A stretch of 42,292 bases of DNA from Fretibacterium sp. (lineage in GTDB: Bacteria; Synergistota; Synergistia; Synergistales; Aminobacteriaceae). Numbering within the stretch: the first letter of the stretch is position 1; each line of letters starts with the position of its first letter. This document shows positions 15,562 through 25,578 of this stretch, piece after piece. The position numbers and the translations under genes are program-made. Where the stretch lies: the NCBI GenBank assembly GCA_024695065.1, contig JAILIX010000093.1, forward strand, positions 1 through 42,292, read 5' to 3'. The notes beneath the pieces were generated by a model. It saw nothing but the letters and a program-made list of their open reading frames with translations. It searched no databases and was not told the origin of the DNA.

Positions 15562-16428
15562 TCAGTCTCTGACAGGCCGGATCTGACAGACCTCCCCGGA
15601 CCGGAGCGTGAGCCGGTCTCCCGTCTCCGTCTCCACCACCAGCCCGGCCTGAGCATCGATATCCACAGCGCGGCCCCGGAATGTCTCGCCATTCTGCTGA
15701 TAGGTGATACCGCACCCGATGAGCAGCGACCGCGCCCGATAGGCCACCATCAGTTCCGGGTCCTCCAGCCGCCCGGCAAAGTCCATCAAACGCTCCGCAA
15801 TGCCAGCCGCAATCTGTGCCCGGCTCGCGGTCCCGGGAACGCCCTCCGGGAAAAGTGAGCCTGCGATATCCGACAGCCCGCCAAAGTCCCGTGTTGTCAC
15901 GTTGACCCCAAGGCCCACTACCACGCTTTCCACGCCACCGGTCGCAGGGCTGTTCACAGCCTCGCTCAGAATGCCGCACACCTTGCGTTCCCCCTGCCCC
16001 CGCCGGAGGTAAATATCATTCACCCACTTGATGAGCGGCCTTTCCTCCGTCATTTCCTCCAGTGTCAGACACACGGCGACAGCAGCAGCGGCTGTGATCA
16101 TCTGGAACTGTTCCATAGCTGCCGTCGGACGCAGGATCAGCGTCATATAAATCCCTGTTCCCGGCGGAGAGGCAAAGCTGTGTCCCCGCCGTCCCCTGCC
16201 CGCCGTCTGCCGGTCGGAGGTCACAAGGGTTCCGGTTTCAGCTCCGCCCAGCGCCAGCCGCTTTGCGTAATTGTTGGTGGAGTCAACAGTTTCCAGACAT
16301 ATCACCCGGCGGACCGGGCTGTCCTCAGACAGGTACGCACGGATGGCCTCCTCTGTCAGGATATCGGGTTCCCCCCCGCAAAGCGGGCTTCCTGCCGGCC
16401 CGCAAAGCGGGTTCCCTACCATGGACAT
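15562..16428 (-). CDS. birA: Biotin--[acetyl-CoA-carboxylase] ligase with repeat-derived N-terminus
   Basis: This 288-residue enzyme makes biotinyl-AMP and transfers biotin to carboxylase carrier domains. Visible motifs are DSTNNYAKRLA, the biotin/ATP loop GRGRRGHSF, KWVNDIYL and KVCGILSEA, then the small C-terminal domain. There is no N-terminal helix-turn-helix, so it is a monofunctional (group I) ligase and not a repressor. I chose the ATG at 16428, which follows AAGGGG at about eight bases. A GTG 66 bases upstream would lie inside repeats. The first ~16 residues (SMVGNPLCGPAGSPLCGG) are coded by two copies of the 24-bp palindromic repeat and are not part of the usual ligase. Confidence 0.95.
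   Translation of the reverse strand: MSMVGNPLCGPAGSPLCGGEPDILTEEAIRAYLSEDSPVRRVICLETVDSTNNYAKRLALGGAETGTLVTSDRQTAGRGRRGHSFASPPGTGIYMTLILRPTAAMEQFQMITAAAAVAVCLTLEEMTEERPLIKWVNDIYLRRGQGERKVCGILSEAVNSPATGGVESVVVGLGVNVTTRDFGGLSDIAGSLFPEGVPGTASRAQIAAGIAERLMDFAGRLEDPELMVAYRARSLLIGCGITYQQNGETFRGRAVDIDAQAGLVVETETGDRLTLRSGEVCQIRPVRD
16375..16422 (-). repeat. 24-bp palindromic repeat, two tandem copies inside birA
   Basis: Two 24-bp units (16375-16398 and 16399-16422) each hold CCCGCTTTGCGGG on the minus strand. They are in frame with birA and code for its first residues. They differ from the main array by a matching pair of stem changes (A-T replaced by G-C). The orientation is the same as in the other arrays. 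Confidence 0.92.
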
Positions 16429-16442
16429 TCTGTTCGCCCCTT

Positions 16443-16561
16443 CCCACAAGTGAGTTTCCTGCCGACCCACAAAGTGGGTTTCCTGCCGACCCACAAAGTG
16501 GGTTTCCTACCGACCCACAAAGTGGGCTTCCTGCCGACCCACAAAGTGGGCTTCCTGCCGA
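16443..16561 (-). repeat. 24-bp palindromic repeat, five tandem copies between MATE gene and birA
   Basis: The units start at 16443 (23 bp, one base lost), 16466, 16490, 16514 and 16538. Each holds CCCACTTTGTGGG followed by TCGGCAGGAA-type sequence on the minus strand. The last two copies are identical. The array begins seven bases after the MATE stop codon and fills most of the gap to birA. There are no unique spacers, so this is not CRISPR. Confidence 0.95.
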
Positions 16562-16568
16562 TCTTACT

Positions 16569-18038
16569 TCAGGAGTCCATTATACTCCGGACGTCGTTCA
16601 TGCCCCTCCAGACGGACCAGGTCATGGGGACGGCGAGGAGAAAGGAGCAGATGTCCGAACAGGGCTGCGCCGTCTCAACGCCGAAAAGCCCAAGGAGCCT
16701 GGTAAGGATAAGGAGGGACGGGATGAAGAAAATACCGGAGCGCGCTGAGGCGATGACCGTAGCCCTCACGCCCTTGCCAATGGACTGAAGCAGCATATTG
16801 GAGAGGGTGAACGAAGCGTTCAGGGGGAGGGTAGCCATCTGCCAGCACAACGCGGTACCGCCGATGGCAATAACCTCCGGGTCGCTGCGGAAGAAGCGGA
16901 CAATAGCTTCCGCATAGGCCGAGCACAGGATGGCCACGAACACAAGGAACAGTGTCCCGTACCGCACGCAGAATTTGTACGCGTCCTTGACACGCCCGTG
17001 CAGCCCCGCACCGTAGTTGTAGCTGCAAACGGGCTGAAAGCCCTGCCCAAAACCGATGAGCGCGGAGTTTGCAAACAACATCACCCTGTTGACCACGGAC
17101 ATTCCGGCAATGGCGGCATCCCCGCCCAGCGTCCCGGCCATGTGGTTCAGCAGGACCGTGGAGAAGCTCATCAGGCCATTCCTGAAGAGAGAGGGTGAGC
17201 CCCCGTTCACAATCTCCAGCAGGTAGTGGAGGTTCAGGCGGATATTACGGGGCCGGAGACGGAGGTTGGGGCCCCGTGTGCTGCCAAAGAGCAGAATGCA
17301 GAAGCTCACACACTGACTCAGGGTTGTCGCCCAGGCCGCGCCGGCCACCCCCATCCCAAAGACAAAGATGAACAGCGGGTCCAAAGCAGTGTTCAGCACA
17401 GCCCCGCTCACCAGGCCCATCATAGCGTAAACCGCACTGCCCTGATAACGGAGCTGATTGTTCACCACAATCTGAGAAGTCATCAGCGGTGCTCCGTACA
17501 GGATAATCCTCATGTAGTTCTGCGTATCCTGCACGATGGTTTCTGTCGCCCCCAGCGCATAGGAGAGCGCCTCCAGTCTGAGGAGTCCGGCGAGCAGGAT
17601 GCCCGTCCCCAACAGAAACGCCAGAGAAAAGCCCGTTGCGGCCATCTCCTCCGCCTCCCGCATTTCTCCGGCCCCCAGCCTGCGCGACAGGTAATTTCCA
17701 GAACCATGTCCACAGAAGAAGCCCACAGCCTGGATGATATTCATCACTGGCAGGACAACGCCAACGGCAGCAGTGGCCTGGGTGGAAATACGCCCGACAA
17801 AGAAGGTGTCCGCCATGTTGTAGAGGTTCGTAACCATCATGCTGATGATTGTCGGAACCGAAAGGGCCCCAATCAATGCAGGAATAGCCGTCTCCGTCAT
17901 GTATTTATGGCGCGCTGCCAGGGATTGGGAGGCAAACCGCCGGATCTGCCCGTCCCACAAAGTGGGCTTCCTACCGGCCCCGGATGCGGCTTCCCGGCTG
18001 TCCCCGGCTCGGGCCTGCCGTGTGGATACCTGTGTCAT
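16569..18038 (-). CDS. MATE family efflux transporter with repeat-derived N-terminus
   Basis: This 489-residue membrane protein has about twelve helices. MATE proteins export drugs or metabolites in exchange for Na+ or H+. Family marks are PTIISMMVTNLYNMADTFFVGRIS, VGFFCGHGSGNYLSRRLGAG, and in the second half LIGFGQGFQPVCSYNYGAG. The normal domain begins near residue 47 (HKYMTETAIPALIGAL). The first ~29 residues are coded by three diverged copies of the 24-bp repeat. The ATG at 18038 has a strong GGGAGG six bases upstream, so the extension is probably translated. It lies 16 bp after the AsmA-like gene in the same operon. Confidence 0.94.
   Translation of the reverse strand: MTQVSTRQARAGDSREAASGAGRKPTLWDGQIRRFASQSLAARHKYMTETAIPALIGALSVPTIISMMVTNLYNMADTFFVGRISTQATAAVGVVLPVMNIIQAVGFFCGHGSGNYLSRRLGAGEMREAEEMAATGFSLAFLLGTGILLAGLLRLEALSYALGATETIVQDTQNYMRIILYGAPLMTSQIVVNNQLRYQGSAVYAMMGLVSGAVLNTALDPLFIFVFGMGVAGAAWATTLSQCVSFCILLFGSTRGPNLRLRPRNIRLNLHYLLEIVNGGSPSLFRNGLMSFSTVLLNHMAGTLGGDAAIAGMSVVNRVMLFANSALIGFGQGFQPVCSYNYGAGLHGRVKDAYKFCVRYGTLFLVFVAILCSAYAEAIVRFFRSDPEVIAIGGTALCWQMATLPLNASFTLSNMLLQSIGKGVRATVIASARSGIFFIPSLLILTRLLGLFGVETAQPCSDICSFLLAVPMTWSVWRGMNDVRSIMDS
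17954..18025 (-). repeat. 24-bp palindromic repeat, one clear and two decayed copies in the MATE gene
   Basis: The clear unit is 17954-17977 (CCCACTTTGTGGG on the minus strand). The next two 24-bp windows (17978-18001 and 18002-18025) keep the spacing and a CCG/CGG or CCC/GGG palindromic core but have diverged. All are in frame with the MATE protein. Confidence 0.75.
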
Positions 18039-25507: not shown

Positions 25508-25537
25508 GAGGGGAGGCCGGACGGCTCTCCCCTCTTT
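25508..25537 (+). terminator. Partial terminator after rpsR
   Basis: GAGGGGAG (25508-25515) pairs with CTCCCCTC (25527-25534), followed by TTTAGTT. It probably trims expression of the downstream DUF2232-rplI-dnaB part instead of ending it fully, since no strong new promoter follows. Confidence 0.6.
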
Positions 25538-25578
25538 AGTTAAGAACTATTAGTTAAGAACTGAAGGAGGGGACCCCC

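Follow-up and report, generated by a model that had tools for sequence, protein, structure and literature searches.

Palindromic repeats of the GTAG REP type are linked to RAYTs, some of them lie inside genes, and a TAG stop often results from their GTAG termini (PMC3733652); the same source does not list Synergistota among the phyla with GTAG or CGTC repeats. The Rickettsia palindromic elements (RPEs), of ~100-150 bp and with long stems, likewise occur inside genes and in frame (PMC3767692, PMC2229807). No earlier report of palindromic repeats in Fretibacterium or Synergistetes was found in the open-access literature. Here we analyze a family of 24-bp palindromic units in a window of 42,292 nucleotides, which is a contig of the 1.98-Mb draft genome (133 contigs) of a relative of Fretibacterium. 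The unit consists of a hairpin, CCCRC NNN GYGGG (5-bp stem, 3-nt loop), and an 11-nt tail, N-TTCC-Y-R-S-CG-N. On the opposite strand it reads NCG-SYRG-GAA-N-hairpin, i.e. NCG-tag-GAAN-hairpin. Among 78 units the tag was GCAG in 34, CTGG in 27, CCGG in 11 and GTAG in five, half of them fitting GYAG and few carrying GTAG itself (TTCCTACCG).

This build resembles that of GTAG REPs (PMC3733652), which share with the unit a short hairpin tagged at one end, stem positions with alternative complementary pairs, short loops, the occurrence as dimers and arrays, and some genic copies; a stem of 5 bp is known from Thauera GTAG-1. With 24 bp and ~101 copies the unit lies within the range of high-copy stem-loops of 20-40 bp, and its many GCAG tags fit the degenerate GYAG form. 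However, most GTAG REPs carry a GTAG/GYAG tag, whereas about half of the tags here are CTGG or CCGG and a 4-nt GAAN spacer separates tag and stem. Head-to-tail arrays are rare in REPs (PMC3733652) and common here, and the unit is exactly eight codons long and commonly in frame in genes, with no RAYT found in four genomes. GTAG-type REP palindromes look closer to it than the other elements described, and since the tag and RAYT tests failed despite the similar build, we refer to the unit as REP-like rather than as a REP.

A previous sequence-only reading of the window had compared the repeats with RPEs. The likeness holds for in-frame insertion: RPEs and the Wolbachia WPEs are palindromic repeats present in frame in conserved genes and in intergenic regions, and apparently selfish (PMC3767692, PMC2229807). 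It does not hold for size, the unit being 24 bp long with a 5-bp stem, 1/4 to 1/6 of the length of RPEs, which reach ~100-150 bp and have a long stem of terminal inverted repeats. The R. japonica study reported an insert at one and the same locus in every orthologue (PMC3767692, PMC2229807), whereas here the sister species often have an empty site. RPEs and WPEs also come from another phylum, and the unit, set against them by description, works like an RPE but is not one. CGTC-tagged REPs (including RPE-4/RPE-6) are likewise short hairpins that have no transposase of their own and are in part genic (PMC3733652). They are marked by a CGTC tag, stems of 8-9 bp that begin with A-T pairs, and CCA tails, none of which is present in the unit. 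The coding palindromes of Nematomorpha mitochondria are inverted repeats in translated genes with arms kept complementary, although they are long and perfect and do not form a dispersed family of one sequence (PMC6649704).

Distribution of the units and structure of the stem

The window belongs to one (G000) of four same-genus genomes, the other three being sister species (G001-G003); all genomes compared are drafts, with 81-100% completeness. Eight clear and two degenerate units were identified in the window (Table 1), with the consensus CCCRC-NNN-GYGGG-N-TTCC[T/C][A/G][C/G]CG-N. They form three groups, a pair at 16375-16422, an array of five at 16443-16561 that opens with a 23-bp variant, and a trio at 17954-18025 made up of a clear unit and the two degenerate ones, in agreement with the ten copies (two, five and three) counted by the sequence-only reading. 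Searching with the 19-base pattern CCCACAAAGTGGGNTTCCT (up to 3 mismatches) gave 7 matches in the window against 0.06 expected, and none of 100 shuffles reached 7. The window also holds a 60-bp tandem repeat (6.8 copies, 2268-2675) inside a gene for a putative membrane-anchored protein, where it gives an Ala/Glu/Pro-rich tail of the EKAEAPASVNEKAAAPASAD type, and two copies of a 14-bp AT-rich repeat, TTAGTTAAGAACTA, at 25536-25562.

Table 1. Palindromic units, inserts relative to G001 and host genes in the window.
Feature	Position	Strand	Remarks
birA-type biotin protein ligase gene	15562..16428	-	with 48-bp insert
24-bp unit CCCGCAAAGCGGGCTTCCTGCCGG	16375..16398	+	in frame in birA, which runs on the opposite strand
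48-bp in-frame insert in birA	16376..16423	-	versus G001; ATGTC, insert, then GAT ATC CTG...
24-bp unit CCCGCAAAGCGGGTTCCCTACCAT	16399..16422	+	in frame in birA, immediately past the start codon
Degenerate 23-bp unit CCCACAAGTGAGTTTCCTGCCGA	16443..16465	+	first of five-unit array
130-bp insert, MATE-birA spacer	16444..16573	-	without counterpart in G001, whose whole spacer is ~20 bp
24-bp unit, MATE-birA spacer	16466..16489	+	
24-bp unit, MATE-birA spacer	16490..16513	+	CTACC, i.e. the GTAG-tag form
24-bp unit, MATE-birA spacer	16514..16537	+	
24-bp unit, MATE-birA spacer	16538..16561	+	
MATE-family efflux gene	16569..18038	-	with 72-bp insert
72-bp in-frame insert, MATE N-terminus	17944..18015	-	versus G001; exact edges can slide
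24-bp unit CCCACAAAGTGGGCTTCCTACCGG	17954..17977	+	in frame, N-terminal part of MATE gene
Degenerate unit CCCCGGATGCGGCTTCCCGGCTGT	17978..18001	+	within 72-bp (3 x 24) insert
Degenerate unit CCCCGGCTCGGGCCTGCCGTGTGG	18002..18025	+	within 72-bp (3 x 24) insert

At the level of the whole genome, the 22-bp core with up to 2 mismatches had 70 matches in G000, and its reversed control had none. A looser pattern detected ~101 copies, 50 of them in the forward and 51 in the reverse orientation, so the single orientation noted in the earlier reading is true of the window and not of the genome. With the same looser pattern the three other genomes of the genus gave 6, 14 and 18 copies, and each of the remaining 179 genomes of the class at most one, reversed-pattern controls giving 0-1. 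Several genomes of a neighbouring genus (g16) had one exact match each, with other loops. An exact search for the 22-bp core in 84,980 species, which may omit the records of the window's own genome, returned a Fretibacterium MAG contig as its sole match. Head-to-tail arrays of the unit are common.

The stem was analyzed in units collected by their tail and right arm, the left arm not being used for selection. Stem position 4 was A-T in 40 units of G000, G-C in 22, A.C in 6 and G.T in 3 (Fisher p = 5e-10, ignoring the relatedness of copies). In the sister species it was G-C in 17, A-T in 4 and G.T in one (Fisher p = 7e-4, the copies being related). The pattern is one of compensatory A-T/G-C change, which template-switch correction of imperfect palindromes could also yield. 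The 13-nt hairpin has a predicted folding energy of -5.5 to -7 kcal/mol. A sharp target consensus was sought around isolated copies, and there is a weak tendency alone, to CCG- on the left and GCCC on the right, flanks that resemble the junction between units. Three tandem units in G003 (L113, 2565-2635) differ from one another in their loops and in a compensatory swap within the stem, which suggests serial insertion or hairpin-guided correction.

A second palindromic family, formed by a CAGGGGG...CCCCCTG hairpin followed by AGCTTNAATCCGG, was found intermixed with the 24-bp units (arrays L034, L036 and L033; L040 near 3971; hisF at L114). It has 55 matches in G000, is also present in other genera of the family and occurs in frame in genes, adding 42 bp to GGT, and a similar insert adds 39 bp to hisF of G003.

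Units in reading frames and at orthologous sites

Gene calls were made with a home-made, simple codon-model gene finder and are approximate; some N-terminal ORF extensions may be untranslated, and gene names lacking Pfam or PDB matches rest on our reading of the protein sequences. Among the G000 stretches examined, 35 of 90 copies fell within ORFs, and recF, missed by the gene finder, adds eight, about half in total. With a coding fraction of ~87%, copies in genes are still under-represented in G000, while in the sister species most copies are inside ORFs. Gene-borne copies use all six orientation/frame classes, which argues against a protein motif, and in some genes their predicted translation is (A)GNPLCG or PQSGLPG. 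The consensus is stop-free in all six frames, as had been claimed from the sequence, while a single TAG arises in the CTACC form. Stop-free sequences also made up 12% of shuffled units and 39% of the shuffles that preserve the palindrome, so this property was rejected as weak evidence on its own.

Comparison with orthologues gives support to the earlier proposal that the element can spread through coding sequence without harm. In at least 13 genes a filled site corresponds to an empty one in a close relative, and the insert is nearly always in frame and 24 bp or a multiple thereof; the unit in this respect behaves like miniature selfish DNA. The conserved genes affected include lpxC, era, hisF, aspC, potA, recF, GGT, a heavy-metal ATPase gene, birA and MATE. 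The three inserts of the window (in birA, in the MATE gene and in the spacer between them) are all missing in G001. The N-terminus of BirA reads MSMVGNPLCGPAGSPLCGGEPDIL in G000 versus MSDEIDIL in G001 (~80% DNA identity), and the lack of 3 x 24 bp in the MATE gene of G001 supports counting 17978-18025 as two degenerate units.

Elsewhere in G000, lpxC carries an insert of exactly 24 bp at a site that is empty in G001 and G003 (predicted peptide of the region, ...GGAAGNPLCGQEL...). There is also a 24-bp insert in GGT, one of 63-72 bp in a cysteine desulfurase gene and several, among them 24 and 72 bp, in an sbcC-like gene, and ~240 bp (~80 residues) of recF have no counterpart in four relatives. 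In the sister species, 24-bp inserts were found in era, whose site is empty in three relatives, in two potA paralogues, in a SpoIIE-like gene and in hisF; a GltA-like gene has 48 bp. Independently of this comparison, the HisF protein has exactly 8 extra residues at the insert site when aligned with solved structures from the PDB, and the predicted peptide of the region is ...AGSPGNPLCGAGE.... In aspC the 24-bp insert is common to G001 and G002 and the site is empty in G000 and G006, indicating that some inserts are old. The heavy-metal ATPase gene of G002 (L127) also carries a 24-bp insert, and the 14-15 bases that flank the empty site on either side are identical. This gene contains a further in-frame insert of 156 bp, of a different kind and without counterpart in G000 and G001.

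At clean sites (SpoIIE-like, aspC, potA, era) no target duplication was found, save for one ambiguous base, which does not fit a MITE with a DDE transposase. Nor do the copies, being 24-bp insertions with respect to orthologues, fit a DNA uptake or chi-like signal, which accrues by substitution.

Probable mode of spread and alternative explanations

The unit is most probably a short, non-autonomous, REP-like mobile palindrome, new copies of which would be added in steps of 24 bp, a mobility that we read from the comparison between species. New copies would be made from existing ones and would enter the genome blunt and in either orientation, alone or beside copies already present, which would give rise to head-to-tail arrays. 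Insertion would not be aimed at genes. Because the unit is eight codons long and its usual forms are stop-free whichever frame is read, an insertion into a protein loop or terminus may often survive, adding 8, 16, 24 or more residues to a conserved protein. Selection would retain the insertions that fall between genes or in protein regions able to tolerate them. The inserts may be nearly neutral, and copying could proceed via a single-stranded hairpin with an enzyme acting in trans.

As for this enzyme, no match to the Y1 transposase/RAYT family (PF01797) was obtained in the four draft genomes, while controls and other family members were positive; a reverse transcriptase, as required for a retron, group II intron or DGR route, was not found in them either, and viral_contigs had no exact match to the unit. 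A RAYT can be lost from REP-bearing genomes. Its apparent absence suggests another mobiliser, and the mobilising enzyme is probably not a RAYT. It is conceivable, though we hold it only tentatively, that this is a coding-compatible REP lineage in which the GTAG tag drifted to GCAG, CTGG or CCGG with loss of the TAG stop, and whose eight-codon unit, fitting any frame, colonised protein genes and was copied by machinery other than a RAYT or a reverse transcriptase. That a tag change opened reading frames to the element is an attractive idea, still hypothetical.

The main rival to a mobile element is spread with no enzyme of its own, through template switching during replication or through recombination of GC-rich hairpins over short homologies, a process that would also correct the arms and multiply tandem units. 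The lack of a RAYT or reverse transcriptase in the four genomes and the frequent head-to-tail arrays are in line with it, as is the partial resemblance of some targets to the unit (CCAGCGG in the GltA-like gene, CCCGCGCAGCGG in the heavy-metal ATPase gene); the junction-like flanks of isolated copies could also mean homology-driven spread. However, clean sites in the SpoIIE-like gene, aspC and lpxC have no obvious homology to the unit, and inserts of exactly 24 bp, with fixed ends and in both orientations, are the rule, so we give this explanation a minor, though real, chance. It is less probable, and on the whole unlikely, that the palindromes serve the host as signals in RNA or DNA (attenuators, hairpins at transcript ends, palindromes bound by proteins) and were kept between genes for this use, with genic copies as by-products. 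The conserved stem and the intergenic arrays (MATE-birA spacer, L034, L036) would fit such a role, but no T-run site of the terminator kind was found at the copies and no Rfam family scored above the gathering threshold, and the spacer array of the window is missing at the orthologous spacer. In addition, the non-standard stem pairs have no clear strand bias (6 A.C vs 3 G.T), unlike what RNA function would produce.

The small GC-rich hairpins in genes also resemble the bypassing elements of yeast mitochondria (mentioned in PMC6649704), and ribosomes might skip the inserts, or these might be cut out of the RNA; single-unit inserts are nevertheless in frame and stop-free, which skipping does not need, and we regard this as very improbable. 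Hardly any weight can be given to the two remaining explanations. A repeated peptide motif or conserved domain of a few proteins would agree with the translations predicted for some genes, but the unit is present in six frames and both orientations, in unrelated proteins and between genes, and orthologues without it exist, so that the frame and empty-site comparisons refute it. An artefact of composition, assembly or binning could be suspected in a draft of 133 contigs, yet shuffle and reversed-pattern controls were near zero and the inserts lie inside contigs, between orthologous flanks ~75-94% identical, in four separate genomes.

In-frame selfish palindromes have so far come mainly from Rickettsia and Wolbachia, along with scattered REP cases. 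The four related genomes, whose copy numbers range from 6 to 101, and the many clean pairs of filled and empty sites in conserved genes constitute a natural experiment that bears on how the units move, which sites in proteins are tolerant and how short peptides enter proteins.
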